A stretch of 64,000 bases of DNA from a bacterium (GCA_021778415.1 JAJYCL010000005.1:1-64000); one strand, 5' to 3'; shown: positions 27,154 through 34,998, counted from the first letter of the stretch. Translations and numbers: made by a program. Notes: generated from the sequence alone by a model not told the origin.

Positions 27154-28179
27154 TTATGCAGTTGCGGGTATTGCCGCATCGCTGGGATCGAGGCGGCGGT
27201 CGGGGAGAAGATAGTGTGTGACGTAATCGGTGACCGCATCATGCAAGGGCGTCATTGCACGCGCGTATCCGGTTGCACGCAGCTTTCCGATGTCGGCACA
27301 CGTCGAGTATTGATATTTCCCATGCAGATGATCGGGCATTGGAATAAACGTGATATTTTCGGGAACGCCCATCGCACGAAATATGGGGCGAACCAACTCA
27401 AGCCAGGTGTGTGCTCGCCCTGATCCGACATTGTACAAACCGCAGGCACCCGATTGAGCAAGGTGCAACGTCATTTCGACGGCATCTTTGACATAGACAA
27501 AATCCCGCTCTTGTTCGCCGTCGGCAAAATCCGGACGATGCGATTTGAAGAGTGCGATCGATCCTGTTTCTCGAATTTGCGAGAATGCCTTATCGACGAG
27601 GCTGCGCATTTCGGCTTTGTGGGCTTCGTTCGGACCAAAGACGTTGAAGTACTTGATGCCGCAGATGCGATCGAGCCATCCGTTGTGGCGAGCGTGTAAA
27701 TCAAAGGCATGCTTGGAGAAGGCGTAGGCGTTAAGCGGACGCAGTGTCGTGAGATCCGCCTCGTCCGAAAGATTCGCTTCAAGCGCACCGTACGTCGCTG
27801 CCGACGATGCATAGACAAAGCGAATGGAGCGTTCAAGCGCAGCGTGCGCGATATTTCTCGTGTACCCGTAATTGTTGCTCATCAGGTATCCGGCATCGCG
27901 CTCCGTCGTCGCAGAACATGCGCCAAGATGGAGTATCGTTCCGATTTCACCGAAGGCATACGGATCGGTACAAAAGCGTTCTTCAAACGTATCGGCATCG
28001 ACGTAATCCGCGAAGCGCAGTGGAACGAGATTACGCCACTTCTCGGATGTATCGAGACGGTCGACAACGAGAATATCCTCGATGCCGCGCGTATTGAGCG
28101 CCCAAATCAGCGCGCTGCCAATGAGGCCTGCGCCGCCGGTAATGACGGTTGTTCCACGGAAATCATGCATGGTGTTCAT
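27154..28179 (-). CDS. hldD: ADP-L-glycero-D-manno-heptose 6-epimerase
   Basis: This short-chain dehydrogenase-type epimerase has an N-terminal NAD(P)-binding TGGAGLIGSALIWAL, the family-specific VVDRLDTSEKWRNLVPLRFADY near residues 35-55, and the catalytic YAFSKHAFD. It converts ADP-D-glycero-D-manno-heptose to the L-form for LPS inner core, which marks a diderm envelope. ATG 28179 was chosen after GAGGG; ATG 28170 is an alternative and the frame stays open to 28197. Length (341) is close to the usual 310-330. Other heptose genes are not in the window. Confidence 0.92.
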   Translation of the reverse strand: MNTMHDFRGTTVITGGAGLIGSALIWALNTRGIEDILVVDRLDTSEKWRNLVPLRFADYVDADTFEERFCTDPYAFGEIGTILHLGACSATTERDAGYLMSNNYGYTRNIAHAALERSIRFVYASSAATYGALEANLSDEADLTTLRPLNAYAFSKHAFDLHARHNGWLDRICGIKYFNVFGPNEAHKAEMRSLVDKAFSQIRETGSIALFKSHRPDFADGEQERDFVYVKDAVEMTLHLAQSGACGLYNVGSGRAHTWLELVRPIFRAMGVPENITFIPMPDHLHGKYQYSTCADIGKLRATGYARAMTPLHDAVTDYVTHYLLPDRRLDPSDAAIPATA

Positions 28180-28189
28180 CGCCCTCTTT

Positions 28190-28235
28190 AGCCGCAAGGC
28201 GCCCGGCCCCCTCGGATTGACGGGGCCTCGCGGCT
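28190..28235. other. GC-rich two-part hairpin between TonB receptor and hldD
   Basis: An outer stem AGCCGC/GCGGCT and an inner stem GGCCCC/GGGGCC enclose a small loop, between the TonB receptor stop and the hldD start. No T-run follows on the minus strand, so it may be an attenuating or RNA-stabilising structure rather than a simple terminator. Confidence 0.5.
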
Positions 28236-28248
28236 CGAGAACCGGCTT

Positions 28249-30540
28249 TTAGAGCGAGGTGTTCAGCGTAAAGAGGAACCGCCTTCCATTCGCGATTTGC
28301 GTGGAGTTGAACCCATTGGATATCTTGATGACGTACTGGTGATTGAGGATATTATCAACGGCGAACGTGTAGCCGAGACCGTGCTGCGGCGTATGGCCGA
28401 ATGACGCATCGAATGCGAGATGCGTGGGAAGTCGCGACGGACCATTTTGAAATTGCACGGGATAGCCCGTCCCATAATCGGTTTCGATTGTGGCGAAATT
28501 TTGATTCCCTTCACCGAATTTGCGCGTAAAGGCGCTACTGATCGAGACGGTTTGGTCGTGATCCTCCGGTTGCAAGGGATAGGTCGGTTGAGAGCCGCCG
28601 AAAAGGAACGTCGATCCCGAAATTCCGCCTGCATAGGATGCCGACCAACTTCCCGAAACAAACCAATTCGAACGATTATCGAACGTTCGTCCTTGCAGAC
28701 GCAGTTCTAAGCCCGCTGCTTGCCCGACCGTATTGTTGTAAACGGCGAAGATCGGTGTGTTGAGCAATTGCGTCGTATCGAGCACGTTTGCGACGTTACG
28801 CCGCCAAATGTTTACGTAGCCTGAGGTGAGAGGTGTGAACGTGTGTCGGATCCCCGCTTCATAGTAACTATCATGTTCCGGTTGGAGATCGTAGACCGGT
28901 GTTGTCGGGCACCCCTGCAATACTACGCACGCTTGCCGGACGTCTTCGAGTTGCGGCGCCGCGTAAAAACGACCGTAATATAAATGCAGGATGTCCTTTG
29001 CATCTATGACCGCGTTGAGTCCGATGCGAGGGCTGAATTGTTGGCCAAACGTGTACCCGGTCGATTTATCGTAACGGAGTCCATACGAAATGGAAATCGC
29101 GCGAGATGGATTCCATTGGTCTTCTCCGTAGAATCCAATTTGCGTGCCGACCTGTCCTTGGTTTGAGAGCGAACTGGGAAGACCGAGTTGAGCAAGCGTC
29201 TGATGTGCGTTGAAATATTCGCGGGCAAGGTCGAGGCCGAATTTCGCATAGTGATGCGGCGAGGAAACCGAGTTGCTTGCGCGGAGTCCAACATAGGTTG
29301 CCGCACGATCTTCATGTAGGCCGACGAGATTGATAGTTGCCGGCGGCGGGTTCGGATTCGGTTGCGTTGCTAAGACATCGTTTCCGAGGTCGCCTAAATA
29401 GGTAATGCGCGATGATCGCACCCATGGAATGAGATCAAATGCCGCGTTGCCGCCGGCCGACGAAAGCGACAGGTGGAGATTGGCAAAACGATCACGCTCG
29501 ATTTGCACGTCTTGCGTTCCAGGAACGCTTACCACCGGATCGTTCGGGTTTTGAGGATCGGAGTTGATCGGAATTTGAAATTGCGAGAGTTGGTTTGATG
29601 TATCAATGGAAATTGTCCCGCGTTTGCCGACGTTGCGAACAAATCGTGCGAACTGATCACTTTGCGAGGATGTATCGTTGATTGCAGAAAACGTCGGGGC
29701 GTCCAAGCCGCGCGCCGTTCGATTGGCGTTGAGATTGAGGAACAGCGCCCCGCCCGCAAGGCGCGACGCGGTGGAAAGGCTCGTCGAAGCTTGCCCTTGA
29801 TTGCCGATGCCAACGCTTACATTTCCCATAAAGGGTTTGCGTAAATTGGGATTGCGGTCGGTGACGATGTTGACGACGGCTCCCGCACGGCTTCCACCGA
29901 ACTCTGCGGGCATCGCACCGGTATAAACTTCGATCGCATCGACATTGCGTGGATCGATGATTTCCGCGAAGTTCGAGGATGTGGCGACGGGTGTCGGGGC
30001 ACCGTCGATTTCATAGGTGATGCCGTGAAAGCCGTGAGCCACCGGCTCGTTATAGGAGAAACGGACGATGCCAGGCAGCGTCTCGACGACGCGGTTGAGG
30101 CTGGTGTTATTCGGTAACGTTTGTAGCGTACTACGCCCAATCTCGTTTTGTGAGACTGGGGTGCCCGATGCTTGCGCCGAGGAAACCACGTGAATATGGG
30201 CAATCGATTTGAGCGAACCTTGTTTGACAAGCGTTAGCATAAAGTGCGCCATTTGGCCGCTGGCAAGATCGAATACGCGCGATTCGTCTCGATATCCCTC
30301 GAAATGCGCGGTGACGGTATAATGGCCGAATGGGACGCGCATGAACATAAACATGCCCATCGCGTTAGTGGTTGTGCGCTCGTGACGTGAACCGCCGTCG
30401 AGCGTAACGAGGACTCCGACTTGCGGTGTCGCCGCGATATCGACGCGGCCTCCGACCATCCCGGTCGTCGCTGCGGCAACGGGTAGCGCGCACAAGAATA
30501 CGAGCAAACAAGCGCAAAGCGCTCGATTCAATGATGACAT
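28249..30540 (-). CDS. TonB-dependent receptor with carboxypeptidase-regulatory-like domain
   Basis: The 763-residue protein has a signal peptide (1-24) and a CarboxypepD_reg-like beta sandwich (about 27-105, GRVDIAATPQVGVLVTLDGG). The plug domain (about 130-235) includes LNRVVETLPGIV, YEIDGAPTPV and AIEVYTGAMPAEFGGSRAGAVVNIVT. A 22-strand-type barrel runs to the C-terminus (RRFLFTLNTSL). It would import a scarce ligand across the outer membrane with TonB energy. It lies 40 bases after the small membrane protein of the multicopper-oxidase cluster, so it may take up copper, manganese, iron or a chelate. That link is inferred from position only. Confidence 0.9.
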   Translation of the reverse strand: MSSLNRALCACLLVFLCALPVAAATTGMVGGRVDIAATPQVGVLVTLDGGSRHERTTTNAMGMFMFMRVPFGHYTVTAHFEGYRDESRVFDLASGQMAHFMLTLVKQGSLKSIAHIHVVSSAQASGTPVSQNEIGRSTLQTLPNNTSLNRVVETLPGIVRFSYNEPVAHGFHGITYEIDGAPTPVATSSNFAEIIDPRNVDAIEVYTGAMPAEFGGSRAGAVVNIVTDRNPNLRKPFMGNVSVGIGNQGQASTSLSTASRLAGGALFLNLNANRTARGLDAPTFSAINDTSSQSDQFARFVRNVGKRGTISIDTSNQLSQFQIPINSDPQNPNDPVVSVPGTQDVQIERDRFANLHLSLSSAGGNAAFDLIPWVRSSRITYLGDLGNDVLATQPNPNPPPATINLVGLHEDRAATYVGLRASNSVSSPHHYAKFGLDLAREYFNAHQTLAQLGLPSSLSNQGQVGTQIGFYGEDQWNPSRAISISYGLRYDKSTGYTFGQQFSPRIGLNAVIDAKDILHLYYGRFYAAPQLEDVRQACVVLQGCPTTPVYDLQPEHDSYYEAGIRHTFTPLTSGYVNIWRRNVANVLDTTQLLNTPIFAVYNNTVGQAAGLELRLQGRTFDNRSNWFVSGSWSASYAGGISGSTFLFGGSQPTYPLQPEDHDQTVSISSAFTRKFGEGNQNFATIETDYGTGYPVQFQNGPSRLPTHLAFDASFGHTPQHGLGYTFAVDNILNHQYVIKISNGFNSTQIANGRRFLFTLNTSL

Positions 30541-30580
30541 GGAAATCCTTCGATTGTGAAAAGGGTGAAAAATGCGCGCG

Positions 30581-31096
30581 TTAAGCGCGTTGGATATTCA
30601 CGAACGAAGGTGGAGCACGAGGGCGACGCAGTGAGTGTGCGCGGCGACCCCGATAGAGCGTTGCCGCGGTGCTATAGTGACAAAGAAATTCTGGTAGGCT
30701 GGAGTGAAAAACGCCGAAATCGGCAGTCCATGCGAGATCGCGTGCAGCAACGAGAAGGGCGCGAAGACCTGCGACAACGGCTGCAACCACGAGCGGTGCC
30801 AACAGAGGAATCGAATGCTGCGGCTCAAGTGCTTCGATGCCGCCGAGGCAGAGCAGCGTGGAACTTATCGCTGGCGCAAGCTGCGGAAGAATCGAGATGC
30901 GTTTTCGTAGCGACCATGCCAGCGAGAGCGAGCCGACGGCCAAGGCAAGGGCAACACTGCCGGCAATAAGGGCATGTTCGGGGCCACCAATGACATGCGA
31001 ATCGGCAGCAAAAAGGAGCGAGTGGGCAACAACCGCGCTGGGAAGTGAAAATGACGCCAGCGCGAGGATGCGAACGGCGCGTCGCGCGAGGGTCAC
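30581..31096 (-). CDS. small polytopic membrane protein of the oxidase cluster
   Basis: The 171-residue protein has about four transmembrane helices (residues 8-28, 43-60, 70-90, 95-118) and an Arg-rich C-terminus (RGRRAHSLRRPRAPP). The pattern RIxALxxxxxPSAxxAHxL, then GGPEHA, is shared with the protein at 34396-34998; the two look like diverged paralogues on either side of the oxidase and cytochrome. Its start overlaps the oxidase stop by four bases (ATGA). No known family was recognised. It may anchor or mature the copper oxidase or carry electrons to it; that is a guess. Confidence 0.65.
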   Translation of the reverse strand: MTLARRAVRILALASFSLPSAVVAHSLLFAADSHVIGGPEHALIAGSVALALAVGSLSLAWSLRKRISILPQLAPAISSTLLCLGGIEALEPQHSIPLLAPLVVAAVVAGLRALLVAARDLAWTADFGVFHSSLPEFLCHYSTAATLYRGRRAHSLRRPRAPPSFVNIQRA

Positions 31097-32526
31097 GACT
31101 TGTAGTCGACCTCGGTCATCATGCCGGACATCATATGGACGGAATTATGACAGTGGAGCAACCAACGCCCGGCTGGTGAATCGGCGCGAAACTCCCAGGT
31201 CATCGTTCCACCGTTGGAGCGAACGAGGGACGTATCTTTCAGCAGCGGACGTGCCAAGCGTTTGCCGTCGATCTTCGTAATCTTGAAAACGTGGCCGTGG
31301 AGATGCATGGGATGATCCATGTCGGTCGTGTTGTGATACGTGATTCGAACCAAATCGCCGCGATGCACGATGATCGGGGGAATATGTGGGTACACCTTGT
31401 CATTCATCGTCCACGCGCTATGACCGTAGCGTCCGCCGCCAAGTTCAAAATGTTGCGTAACGTTTGCCCGGAGTTCCATGTACGTTTGCGGCTTTGTATT
31501 GATGCCGGCGAGCGTTTCATACGTTCCCACGACGGCATCTCCAAGCAGCATCGACGACGCTTGCGGCGGAGCGTGCTCCATGCCGGTCGTTGCGAGGACG
31601 ACGGATTGTTGATAGGCGGTCGGTTCGCTGGAAATCTCTTGTAAGAGAAAAGCGCCGGGATGGGCAATCGTGACGTACGCGTCGATCCGCTCGGCGACGC
31701 CGAGGCGAACGACATCAACATCGATCGGAACGCTCAAGCGGTTGCCATCCGTATGTGTGACGGTGAGCTTATGACCGGCTAGGCGAACATATTTCGTCTG
31801 AGTGGGATTTGCATTGAGCATGCGCAAGCGAACGCGTGAACCGGCGCGCACGGAGAGCGTCTTGGTTTGCGGATAACTGGCGCCGTTGATGCAATGTGCG
31901 AGATAGCCGACTTCGTCGCCCATTTTATCGCCGGCCTTCATCGATGTCATCTCGCGCGAATCCATCGGCTCGGTCATCGGCGCGTTGCTGACACCGCGCA
32001 TCGCGGCCTCATAACTCGGCATCGAAGGAACATCGTGGAAAACGATCGCGAACTCGGCATCGGCAGGTTCGTCGGCTGGGTCTTCAACGATAAAGACGCC
32101 GAAGAGTCCGTTGATGAGTTGGCGATCGTAATGGTCATGGTACCATCGCGTCCCCGATGGATTCGCGGCAAACGCATACTCGAAAGTCCCGTTCGGAGGG
32201 ACCGGCTTTTGCGTGACGTTCTGTACGCCATCCATCGCGTTGGGCAGAATCATGCCGTGCCAATGGATGGTCGAATCGTGACCGCTCTTATTGGTATAGG
32301 CAATGCGAACGCGTTGGCCGACGCGCGCACGAAGGATTGGCCCCGGCAAAAATCCGTTATAGGCGTACGATGGATACGATTGCCCGGTCGACGGCGAGAA
32401 GGCAAATGGCGTCGAAGTGAGCTTATACGAGAGCTCGTCTTCGGCAAAGGCTCGTGAAGCGAACGGCGGAATCGCGACGGCAAGCATTGCGCCGGCCGAG
32501 CGCTGGAGAAAATGTGCGCGTTGCAT
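31093..32526 (-). CDS. multicopper oxidase (laccase/CumA-like)
   Basis: The 477-residue exported protein (signal peptide about 1-28) has all four copper-ligand motifs: HWHG at 88-91, WYHDH at 128-132, HPMHLHGH at 405-412, and HCHNSVHMMSGMM from 458, with type-1 ligands His405, Cys459, His464 and Met469. It oxidises a phenolic, Cu(I), Mn(II) or Fe(II)-like donor and reduces O2 to water. It follows the dihaem protein by five bases and overlaps the next gene, so the set is one transcript. A Met/Asp-rich loop (about 185-205, TEPMDSREMTSMKAGDKMGD) resembles substrate-gating loops of cuprous oxidases. Confidence 0.93.
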   Translation of the reverse strand: MQRAHFLQRSAGAMLAVAIPPFASRAFAEDELSYKLTSTPFAFSPSTGQSYPSYAYNGFLPGPILRARVGQRVRIAYTNKSGHDSTIHWHGMILPNAMDGVQNVTQKPVPPNGTFEYAFAANPSGTRWYHDHYDRQLINGLFGVFIVEDPADEPADAEFAIVFHDVPSMPSYEAAMRGVSNAPMTEPMDSREMTSMKAGDKMGDEVGYLAHCINGASYPQTKTLSVRAGSRVRLRMLNANPTQTKYVRLAGHKLTVTHTDGNRLSVPIDVDVVRLGVAERIDAYVTIAHPGAFLLQEISSEPTAYQQSVVLATTGMEHAPPQASSMLLGDAVVGTYETLAGINTKPQTYMELRANVTQHFELGGGRYGHSAWTMNDKVYPHIPPIIVHRGDLVRITYHNTTDMDHPMHLHGHVFKITKIDGKRLARPLLKDTSLVRSNGGTMTWEFRADSPAGRWLLHCHNSVHMMSGMMTEVDYKS

Positions 32527-32531
32527 CGTTC

Positions 32532-34340
32532 TTAGCCTCCAATATTGACCGGAATGGTCATGGTCTTGCCGTCGTAGTGCAGAATGAGCGTCCAGGGGCC
32601 CGACATCGCGAATTCGATCGTCCCGCGAAAGACGTGGGGGTCCGTAGGACTTGGCGTAAGGACCACGTTAGCGGAGCGCATCGACATGCCCCCCATTTCC
32701 ATGAGCGGTTCGATCGTCACCGATGTTGGAGGCGTTCCGGAAAATGTCACGCGGATTTGCCCGTGTTGGCTTGGCGCGCCGCCAACCCAGGTCACGATCG
32801 GCCGGGCCGTTGCGCCGCTACCGCCGTCGAGCCCGGAAAGATACGCGACGATATCGTGAATTTGCGGTGCAGTAAATCCGAAGTTCGGCATCGGAGCGCG
32901 CGGATTGCGGATGAAATCGGCGATTTGCGCAGGTGAGAGGCGTTTTTCTATGCCGACGAGTTTGGGGCCCAAACCACCGCCGAAGGTTGCGCCGTGGCAA
33001 CCGATGCACCCATTTGCTGCGACGAGTTTCTCGCCGGCATTCGCATCCGCGGGGTTTGTCGGTGTCGAGGCGACGGCGGAGGCATGTAAGACTTGCATCG
33101 TATGGGCGCCATGGAGCACAGCGAAATCTTCTTTTGCTTGGAGATGTTCTTGCGTTGCCGATGCGGAGACGACGTGGATTCCAGCTGGAGCCGTGAGCAG
33201 GTAGCGTTTGCCATCTTGCCACGGACCGGCGATGCCAAAGCCGAAGCCGATCTGCGGACGCATGCCGGGACCCATGGAAAGTTCGCTGAGGAATTTGATA
33301 TTCGGCGCAATATTATGCGCATAGTCGACAAGATACTGGCGATTGAGCGTATCGCTCGCACCGATATCATAGCGAACGAGTACATGGTTGCGCCAACCAA
33401 AATCGCGGGTGAGTTCGAACGTTGCGCCATTGAGTGGAATATTGGCTAGGCCGACATCGGGCGAACTATCGAACCCGTGATAGAGCATCGATTGGAAATG
33501 CCATTTCGACGTTTGATACGCGTAGTAGATTCCTTCGCGTGTGAATGCGTCTCCGTGTAAATAGAGGTTGGAGATCGTATTTAAAACGGGCGAGTCTCCA
33601 CGCATCGCGACGACACCAAGCGTCCACGGAATGGACATGCCGCCATAGGAGAGATTGAGATCGACGGTTCGCGGACTATCGGCGCGATTAAAATCGAAGG
33701 CTCCTTGAATCGGCTGAGCGCCTGCGATGTAGGCGGCATTGTACATGAATTCGTTAGACATGCCGTTGAAGGCAACGCCCCAATGGGCGTCATTCGGGAC
33801 GAAGCCGTTTTGGCCGACGCCTTGCGCGGCGAGGAGATAATCTCCCATCGTCCAGGCGTGTGCGGGCATAAATGGAAACGGCGTGTGGAATTTGCCGACT
33901 TGAATCGAGTTGAGGCCGTGAAAGAGACCATTATAGGAAATCCACGATTGCTCGGTGATTCCCGCAGCGTTGGAACTGATAAGGTGTTGCTCGGCAAACC
34001 ACGTCATGCGCGGCCCGAGATATCCGCCGCCTAAGATCGACGTGTCGGCAAGTTGCGTTTGCGCCGGTTGGCTCTTATTGGCAAGATACGAGTAGATTTT
34101 TACCCGCATCGCGAGGGGAAGCGCTTGATGTTGCAGATGCCAATCGAGGACTTGAAAGTTCGACATCATAACCATCATGCCGTAGCGCGTCATCGCCGGA
34201 TACGTGGTATGGCAAACTTCGCACGAGATGCCTTGTCCATTGGCAAAGACGGGGATGGCATCTGCGCGTCCGGCAAACACGAACGTGCTCAAAACTAGTG
34301 CTGCCCCTGCGAGCACGCGAACCAACGAAAATTTCGTCAC
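32532..34340 (-). CDS. exported dihaem protein: cytochrome c, probable beta-barrel, cytochrome c, FixH/YtkA-like tail
   Basis: GTG 34340 (GGAGA nine bases upstream) gives a signal peptide and 602 residues. A first haem site CEVCH lies at 40-44. A long region (about 60-400) has alternating aromatic/polar strands such as GLNSIQVGKFHTPFPF, WGVAFNGMSNEFMYNAAY and LVRYDIGASDT, like an outer-membrane porin. A second haem site CIGCH at 445-449 sits in a class I cytochrome c domain with LVGIEKRLSPAQIADFIRNP and Met ligands. The last 85 residues (EMGGMSMRSANVVLTPSP, FRGTIEFAMSGPWTLILHYDG) resemble FixH/YtkA. It lies five bases before the copper oxidase and would pass electrons to or from it. The barrel is predicted by eye only. 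Confidence 0.8.
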   Translation of the reverse strand: MTKFSLVRVLAGAALVLSTFVFAGRADAIPVFANGQGISCEVCHTTYPAMTRYGMMVMMSNFQVLDWHLQHQALPLAMRVKIYSYLANKSQPAQTQLADTSILGGGYLGPRMTWFAEQHLISSNAAGITEQSWISYNGLFHGLNSIQVGKFHTPFPFMPAHAWTMGDYLLAAQGVGQNGFVPNDAHWGVAFNGMSNEFMYNAAYIAGAQPIQGAFDFNRADSPRTVDLNLSYGGMSIPWTLGVVAMRGDSPVLNTISNLYLHGDAFTREGIYYAYQTSKWHFQSMLYHGFDSSPDVGLANIPLNGATFELTRDFGWRNHVLVRYDIGASDTLNRQYLVDYAHNIAPNIKFLSELSMGPGMRPQIGFGFGIAGPWQDGKRYLLTAPAGIHVVSASATQEHLQAKEDFAVLHGAHTMQVLHASAVASTPTNPADANAGEKLVAANGCIGCHGATFGGGLGPKLVGIEKRLSPAQIADFIRNPRAPMPNFGFTAPQIHDIVAYLSGLDGGSGATARPIVTWVGGAPSQHGQIRVTFSGTPPTSVTIEPLMEMGGMSMRSANVVLTPSPTDPHVFRGTIEFAMSGPWTLILHYDGKTMTIPVNIGG

Positions 34341-34395
34341 AAAAGAGTCTCCGCCGCAACGCGGCTTATCGCGCAAGTAGAATAATCGAACTTGG

Positions 34396-34998
34396 CTAAA
34401 GGCGCGGAGGTGGCCGAGAAAAGGCGTGCGGGAATGCGTGAACGCCGACGGAGACGATCGGTGCAAAAGCGTAGGCGGGCATCGCCGGGCCGGTTCCGGA
34501 GCGGGGGCGATGCGAACTCATCCGCGCAGCAGCCAGCGTCGCGACGTGATGTATCCATTGCGATAAGAAGCGAATGGCGAGAATGGCAATCAGCGAACAG
34601 AGAACCTGGCTTGCAAATCCGAGCCATCCAGTCGGATGACGTTCAATGGTTTCGAGTGCCGTGTAGAACAGAATCTGCATGCCGAGGATCGAGGCAAAGA
34701 GTGCCGAGAGGCTTGGCATGCGGTCGATCGTTCGGGCGCTAAAGAGTGCCAGCGACGAAAGGACGGCGAAAACGACGAGCCCGGGAACGAGCGACAGCTC
34801 GAGGGCATGAAGATATGCCTCGTGCTCGGGAAGGCCCAAGAGCACGGTGCCCAATCGGCTCGCCAGAGCGTGCCCGGCCAGCATCGCTGGGACGGCCACG
34901 AGGGCGGCAATACGAAAGACGCGACTCACCAAGACGTACAACGCCCGGTGGCCGATGTTCGTTGCTAAAATCTCAAAAAAAGGTATATCCTTTCGCAA
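34396..34998 (-). CDS. small polytopic membrane protein, paralogue of the one at 30581-31096
   Basis: The 200-residue reading frame has about four transmembrane helices and a C-terminal Pro/Arg-rich tail (HAFSRPPPRL). The stretch VSRVFRIAALVAVPAMLAGHAL then LPEHEAYLHALEL aligns by eye with the start of the protein at 30581-31096. The longest start is TTG 34998; the alignment favours a later one (TTG 34941 or GTG 34929), and no ribosome site decides it. It heads the oxidase-cytochrome cluster and is divergent from the ymdB operon. Function is unknown. Confidence 0.6.
   Translation of the reverse strand: MRKDIPFFEILATNIGHRALYVLVSRVFRIAALVAVPAMLAGHALASRLGTVLLGLPEHEAYLHALELSLVPGLVVFAVLSSLALFSARTIDRMPSLSALFASILGMQILFYTALETIERHPTGWLGFASQVLCSLIAILAIRFLSQWIHHVATLAAARMSSHRPRSGTGPAMPAYAFAPIVSVGVHAFPHAFSRPPPRL
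34979..34993. promoter_or_regulatory. inverted repeat AAAGG-TATAT-CCTTT
   Basis: A perfect 5-bp inverted repeat with TATAT centre lies in the divergent region between the oxidase cluster and the operon starting at 35069. It could be an operator or part of a -10 element on either strand. No regulator family was matched. Confidence 0.4.

Follow-up and report, generated by a model that had tools for sequence, protein, structure and literature searches.

We analysed a window of 64,000 nucleotides (nt) from a metagenome-assembled genome (MAG) of the little-studied phylum Eremiobacterota (Vulcanimicrobiota; GCA_021778415.1 JAJYCL010000005.1:1-64000), which has a size of 2.59 Mb and is labelled G000 among the genomes compared. 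Five genes on its minus strand encode a membrane protein (memA), a dihaem protein (CYT), a multicopper oxidase (MCO), a second membrane protein (memB) and a TonB-dependent receptor (Table 1). Open reading frame (ORF) calling reproduced the arrangement described in the first-pass annotation, with 55 nt between memA and CYT, 5 nt between CYT and MCO, a GTG start codon of memB overlapping the stop codon of MCO by 4 nt, and 40 nt between memB and the receptor gene. The start of memA is uncertain and its conserved part begins near position 34932. That annotation mentioned neither the C-terminal R-[P/A]-P-P shared by memA and memB nor the predicted RNA pairing that follows each of these genes. In our view memA and memB are very likely nascent-chain sensors, that is regulatory leader peptides, with memA controlling CYT-MCO and memB the TonB receptor.

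Table 1: Features of the memA-CYT-MCO-memB-TonB receptor locus (positions counted from the first letter of the window).
Feature	Position	Strand	Basis
memA, putative leader peptide with four transmembrane helices, heading CYT-MCO	34396..34998	-	ORF, family alignment, four-helix model, homologues
memA RPPP codons CGG CCA CCT CCG, predicted arrest motif and anti-Shine-Dalgarno	34405..34416	-	homologue motif, Shine-Dalgarno pairing
CYT Shine-Dalgarno GGAGA, predicted to pair with the memA RPPP codons	34348..34352	-	RNA folding
CYT, dihaem protein, GTG start at 34340	32532..34340	-	Pfam, alignment, AlphaFold2, Foldseek against PDB
CYT signal peptide		-	
CYT haem site CEVCH	34209..34223	-	
CYT 16-strand porin barrel	~33225..34115	-	
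CYT cytochrome c with CIGCH	32994..33008 (CIGCH)	-	
CYT C-terminal YtkA-like domain		-	
MCO, three-domain multicopper oxidase, CopA-like	31093..32526	-	Pfam/NCBIfam, copper ligands, genome search
memB, second putative leader peptide of the memA family, heading the TonB receptor	30581..31096	-	ORF, alignment, homologues
memB RAPP codons CGT GCT CCA CCT	30608..30619	-	
TonB receptor Shine-Dalgarno AAGGA, predicted to pair with the memB tail	30546..30550	-	core paired with motif region (4/4 bases)
TonB-dependent receptor, N-terminal carboxypeptidase-regulatory domain	28249..30540	-	Pfam; homologous to receptors after this leader family elsewhere

The putative leader family and the genes behind it

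The two membrane proteins had been described as related, and a profile-profile comparison places them in one family (probability 96, E 1.5e-9). Members of this family were found in 69 of 149 genomes of the phylum, and G000 encodes only two of them, both at this locus. When upstream neighbours were picked by their position alone every true one ended in R-P-P-P or R-A-P-P, and a six-frame scan of 41 loci gave 31 ORFs with transmembrane (TM) segments ending in [RHQ][AGP]PP, all of them located directly upstream of CYT or a TonB receptor. In order to avoid circularity we rebuilt the hidden Markov model (HMM) of the family without the C-terminal motif. This motif-blind HMM found 71 homologues, 70 of which carry R[AP]PP (65 RPPP and five RAPP) between one and 17 residues before the stop codon, and the only motif-negative homologue contains an ambiguous base. 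Among 4602 complete frames an ending of this type occurs in 86, mostly in the 70 homologues.

Apart from the motif the sequences are very divergent. In the alignment of the 71 homologues the only near-invariant positions are H21 (100%), H37 (93%), E94 and E97 (100%) as well as R173, P175 and P176 (99%), with 73–78 residues between E97 and the arginine in 68 of 70 members, and the arginine is conserved with all four CGN codons being used. There are no conserved cysteine columns among the 71 homologues, so a conserved CXXC or CxxxC metal motif is missing. The family has no Pfam family, and 28 members showed no match to DUF2946 at E values up to 1 (best 25 of 32 families). The memA model (predicted local distance difference test (pLDDT) 81.5) consists of helices 2–32, 38–64, 75–96 and 103–140 followed by a loose tail, and no solved structure matched this fold at E 0.001 or better. 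As the positive-inside rule puts both termini into the cytoplasm, H37, E94 and E97 would lie where TM2 and TM3 end on the periplasmic side. TM4 ends at about residue 140 and the arginine is at 173, so that the localisation signal and the motif are over 30 residues apart and the cytoplasmic tail has a length of about 35 residues. A weak second leader-like match (E 1.5e-5, tail GNRPPPALLPA) was also seen on the minus strand at the far end of locus L131.

The next gene is always on the same strand and 27–101 nt away (70 loci). Among 40 further loci it encodes a TonB receptor at 30 and an outer-membrane-like protein (AHVVCGDRVFPTT...) at nine; at L124 genes for CopC and for a CopD-cytochrome c fusion come after the latter, and this fusion is also present in L130 and L132. 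SCO1/SenC and a thioredoxin-like protein each follow a single leader. The proposal of the first-pass annotation that the two membrane proteins act as structural partners bracketing an oxidase complex was not supported, since each of them heads the gene that follows and elsewhere the family is found by itself upstream of TonB receptors, copC-copD operons or SCO1. With copper being the common theme of the downstream genes we favour it as the signal, although without proof, and iron may also be involved, as Fur-family regulator genes flank some of the TonB loci (L113, L119, L121 and L127). No sec or yidC genes were seen downstream of leaders in the loci examined. An exported protein of 300 amino acids (AHVVCGDRVFPTTLTMDDPGVSDE...) without Pfam match was also observed after the leader, heading copC and copD-cytochrome c genes (L105:1682-2593 and L130:1665-2570 in leader-strand coordinates, as well as L104, L106, L116, L118, L122, L124 and L132), and is probably an outer-membrane copper protein.

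Predicted pairing of the motif codons with the next Shine-Dalgarno sequence

A stretch of 60 nt spanning the leader stop codon has a mean folding z of -2.18 against dinucleotide shuffles (n = 70), compared to 0.00 for 253 control gene ends. At the locus itself the RPPP codons of memA, CGGCCACCUCCG, are predicted to pair with GGAG of the CYT Shine-Dalgarno (SD) sequence (z -2.0), and the memB region folds with z between -2.5 and -2.9. In the minimum free energy structure, 56 of 69 leaders have the SD core paired to the motif codons, and the mean pairing probability between both elements is 0.79 in leaders, compared to 0.19 for 205 control starts. Of the motif proline codons 41% are CCT, compared to 8% of the other proline codons of the same ORFs (p 1e-22), and the use of this rare codon in the motif results in CCTCC, the complement of GGAGG.

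Leaders pair better with their own SD sequence than with a swapped one (-14.0 vs -11.3 ± 0.27 kcal/mol, 0/5000 permutations and still 0/5000 after dereplication). The covariation score was 0.186 compared to 0.081 in shuffles (0/500), slid registers scored lower, and at one position beside the SD core the covarying pairs AU, GC, UA and CG are all found. As shuffles ignore the relatedness of the sequences, most weight should be given to the controls with slid registers and swapped partners. CCTCC is missing from twelve leaders that still encode RPPP or RAPP, from which we conclude that peptide and RNA are both under selection. A hairpin carrying the leader stop codon in its loop was rejected as shared feature, because it is not clearly commoner in leaders (44%) than at control stop codons (36%; 5 bp or more).

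The cytochrome-porin and its oxidase

Both CxxCH sites of CYT and its porin-like middle, which had been noted from the sequence, were found again. Pfam detected the C-terminal cytochrome c and, below threshold, a YtkA-like domain but nothing else, and structure prediction with AlphaFold2 using 28 orthologues placed 16 antiparallel strands in the region from residue 76 to residue 372. The mean pLDDT of this model is 70, with most of the barrel between 75 and 90 and a low-confidence haem plug. A Foldseek search against the PDB returned solved 16-strand porins (E 4e-11, target TM 0.66), and the predicted strands together with these matches support the middle part being a barrel. The N-terminus of CYT, AIPVFANGQGISCEVCHTTYP, resembles the published consensus AXPXFAR[Q/K][T/Y]..CXXCH..PXL of Cyc2 (PMC8406198), a fused cytochrome-porin in which a 16-strand porin lies behind the N-terminal haem motif. 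We compared both proteins via this motif and the fold: CYT (AIPVFA..CEVCH..YP) has AXPXFA and CXXCH but neither R[Q/K][T/Y] nor PXL. It also differs from Cyc2, which has a single haem site, in its second CxxCH, the fused cytochrome c and YtkA-like domains and the MCO partner. Closer to the Cyc2 motif are orthologues of the sister family f3 (AIPMFAKRT..CELCH..FPGM) and L148 (AMPPFAQAY..CSLCH..PAL), one of three further haem-porin-like CYT paralogues in G000 (L146-L148, contigs 32, 61 and 14). Cyc2-like proteins were known earlier from one Eremiobacterota MAG (PMC8357290), and no description of the added cytochrome/YtkA domain or of the MCO partner was found in the literature. A scan of the genome collection with two motif patterns, limited in its sensitivity, found relatives of CYT only in records of Eremiobacterota or 'bacterium' MAGs. 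A plasmid search gave no match for CYT or memA, its limited sensitivity making this no proof of absence.

The copper ligands of MCO, said to be complete, are H88, H90, H130, H132, H405, H408, H410, H458, C459, H460 and H464, all of them invariant in the orthologue alignment, with complete T1, T2 and T3 sets. Its best-scoring subfamily is CopA (TIGR01480) with 203 bits, which is far below the cut-off of 479. It is the only MCO that a search of G000 found and carries a Met-rich insert, and related loci show a Tat-like RRxxFL start. A periplasmic CopA-like MCO beside an outer-membrane barrel is also known from CopA/PcoA oxidases and the PcoAB-like porin-MCO clusters of FeOB (PMC5566968), from which the pair described here differs in the haem-bearing barrel and the low TIGR01480 score.

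The genes co-occur in many other genomes, so that the gene set stands as a conserved unit of the phylum and CYT as a haem-bearing porin beside an MCO. The search of the 149 genomes gave about 28 close CYT orthologues with 50–60% identity, and MCO directly follows CYT in 26 of 27 testable Eremiobacterota cases. In the exception, L033, CYT and an RPPP leader are present without an adjoining MCO and the next gene encodes an AAA/RNase H helicase-like protein. The two halves of CYT are separate genes in L051 and L057, and in eight loci (L064-L070 and L072) the haem-porin is absent and the cytochrome c/YtkA half is a separate gene directly before MCO. As this half stays with MCO without the barrel, the cytochrome-MCO pair seems to form the core, with the haem barrel as an extra part that is either fused to it or encoded next to it. 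In the f3 family (L061:7954-9834, L062 and L063) a cytochrome-porin with three CxxCH sites precedes a shorter MCO-like protein with full copper motifs. A diverged upstream protein in L061 and L063 also ends in RPPP, and in L061 H, H and E..E could be seen by eye.

CYT probably uses its two haems to pass electrons between the outer membrane and MCO in the periplasm, and it may present copper on its YtkA-like tail. A role of CYT-MCO in electron transfer or metal oxidation at the outer membrane, as far as it can be judged from the sequence, is plausible. More specifically the pair could be an electron conduit from the outer membrane to a copper-dependent O2 reductase, i.e. a Cyc2-like oxidase of Fe(II) or another metal short-circuited to an MCO. 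The Cyc2-like N-terminus, the 16-strand porin, the strict adjacency of CYT and MCO and the loci in which the cytochrome c/YtkA half stays by MCO agree with such a conduit. Since Cu(I) oxidation would agree equally well with the CopA-like scores, the Met-rich insert and this retained pairing of the cytochrome c/YtkA half with MCO, we regard the conduit as possible but tentative. It concerns the cargo only and is compatible with the leader model.

Proposed copper sensing by putative arrest leaders

RAPP-type motifs stall ribosomes (PMC10951233), and uA_LPPP, a relative of RPPP, arrests Bacillus subtilis ribosomes in vivo (PMC10987492). Copper-responsive leaders have been described for the same kinds of target, as CutF controls the MCO CutO (PMC9973294) and CruR controls a TonB transporter (PMC9426467), and arrest has been demonstrated for CruR and for several four-TM peptides near metal genes (PMC12992588). 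As the target kinds of CutF and CruR, an MCO and a TonB receptor, sit side by side here under an unrelated four-TM family with a predicted 2His-2Glu site, we class memA and memB as probable RAPP-type regulatory leaders, and their signal is probably copper.

CutF from the cutFOG operon of Rhodobacter capsulatus (PMC9973294) resembles them in being encoded by an upstream ORF, in its export signal, putative metal site and C-terminal proline-rich stretch, and in controlling the translation of an MCO gene with a sequestered SD sequence, a control that is copper-dependent there and predicted here. CutF is however a secreted DUF2946 protein with CxxxC, whereas memA and memB have four TM segments, 2His-2Glu and no DUF2946, and their RPPP codons themselves form the anti-SD. 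CruR of bfrG from Bordetella pertussis (also DUF2946; PMC9426467, PMC12992588) has a C-terminal RAPP, a fixed spacing between metal site and motif and a TonB-dependent transporter as next gene, just as found here. Its arrest, which would be expected for memA and memB too, was confirmed in vitro, and in contrast to the short gaps and SD pairing described here it uses a CXXC site, a long intergenic region and Rho-dependent termination. Compared by description, the four-TM RAPP/RGPP arrest peptides of Streptomyces lividans such as SLIV_18480 (PMC12992588) also have a C-terminal motif, a metal-related downstream gene and a predicted His-containing metal site, yet theirs is predicted to consist of three His and Met and their targets are Gram-positive, compared to mostly RPPP and 2His-2Glu here. 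Monitoring substrates of the SecM/MifM type and the RQH family (PMC10987492) also carry a motif near the C-terminus and a hairpin sequestering the downstream SD sequence, which is opened by the stalled ribosome, as we propose here. They monitor protein localisation and have sec/yidC targets, in contrast to the metal-related ones of the new family.

In the mechanism that we propose, the ribosome would pause at R-P-P-P just after insertion of TM4, with the exit tunnel filled by about 35 tail residues. A metal ion at the predicted 2His-2Glu site, copper being the likeliest, would alter the pull on the chain and hence the length of the pause. A paused ribosome would cover the anti-SD codons, freeing the SD sequence of the next gene and switching it on, and without a pause the SD sequence would be hidden again. 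The proteins controlled would handle copper, or Fe/Cu redox chemistry, at the outer membrane. On balance we lean towards phylum-wide membrane-embedded copper-sensing arrest peptides, in which one stretch of 9–12 nt is dual-coded for a stalling R-P-P-P peptide and the anti-SD of the next gene, with stalling lifting the repression, and in which a new intramembrane or periplasmic 2His-2Glu sensor controls outer-membrane metal receptors and a Cyc2-like cytochrome-porin/MCO pair. Neither a 2His-2Glu membrane sensor nor an arrest motif that doubles as anti-SD was found in the literature consulted.

Several points weigh against this model. Its main weakness is elongation factor P (EF-P): when EF-P is absent, RPPP ranks with the strongest-stalling XPPP sequences in Escherichia coli, yet EF-P rescued RPPP in that context (PMC4176338), and G000 encodes efp. 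Resistance to EF-P has been tested best for RAPP and RGPP (PMC12992588). The choice of copper is based on the downstream genes only, and Fe, Mn or Zn might bind to 2His-2Glu as well. In about one fifth of the leaders no SD-motif pairing is seen, the p-values overstate independence as the homologues are related, and start codons were chosen partly by SD strength, a choice for which the swap test controls. Finally, genus g12 (L039, L041, L044, L046 and L052) has CYT-MCO without an adjoining leader and without a TonB receptor.

This last arrangement also bears on memA and memB being working membrane subunits, e.g. a metal or electron conduit for MCO and TonB receptor with an incidental proline tail. 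Both are full-length four-helix proteins with a conserved 2His-2Glu, and memA adjoins CYT-MCO in most genomes. Yet CYT-MCO occurs without memA in g12 and in the further gene order memB-TonB receptor-CYT-MCO, the family precedes unrelated proteins, and in an otherwise very divergent sequence the tail is the most conserved part, its codons pairing with the next SD sequence, which makes such subunits quite unlikely. As subunits of the oxidase in particular they were rejected, the genome contexts and the C-terminal motif arguing against it. A pure RNA switch, in which CCTCC acts as anti-SD and the proline motif is a by-product, would explain the rare CCT codons and the covariation with the SD sequence. 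We consider it highly improbable in view of the twelve CCTCC-less leaders, the arginine conserved through all four CGN codons, and a reading frame, TM topology, 2His-2Glu and E97-Arg spacing that are conserved at the protein level. The leaders might also monitor membrane insertion or export instead of metal, like SecM, MifM and ApdP, as most RAPP-like arrest peptides of known function precede secA, secDF or yidC (PMC10987492) and many targets here are exported outer-membrane proteins. With no sec or yidC gene seen downstream in the loci examined and the invariant 2His-2Glu as well as CopC, CopD, SCO1, TonB and MCO as targets pointing to metal, this appears unlikely.

If the copper-sensing model is true, about half of the Eremiobacterota genomes examined would read periplasmic metal via a nascent membrane protein that sets the translation of outer-membrane metal genes, and arrest-peptide sensing would extend from DUF2946 proteins and export monitors to an unrelated membrane fold. 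It would also assign a role to a family that has no Pfam entry and provide a starting point for understanding the control of the cytochrome-porin/MCO pair. The RPPP motif was not targeted by the RAPP/RGPP survey (PMC12992588), and the dual-coded arrest/anti-SD motif would offer a sharp and inexpensive way to test how a start site is opened by stalling.

At the downstream end of the locus, the TonB receptor has its plug (PF07715) and barrel (PF00593) both above the Pfam cut-off. It is followed by a gene for ADP-glyceromanno-heptose 6-epimerase (27154-28197), as are leader-TonB units elsewhere (e.g. L112 and L137). In g12 CYT-MCO occupies the same place in the genome, between ymdB and the heptose epimerase gene, and leader-TonB units are present elsewhere in this genus (L138-L140).

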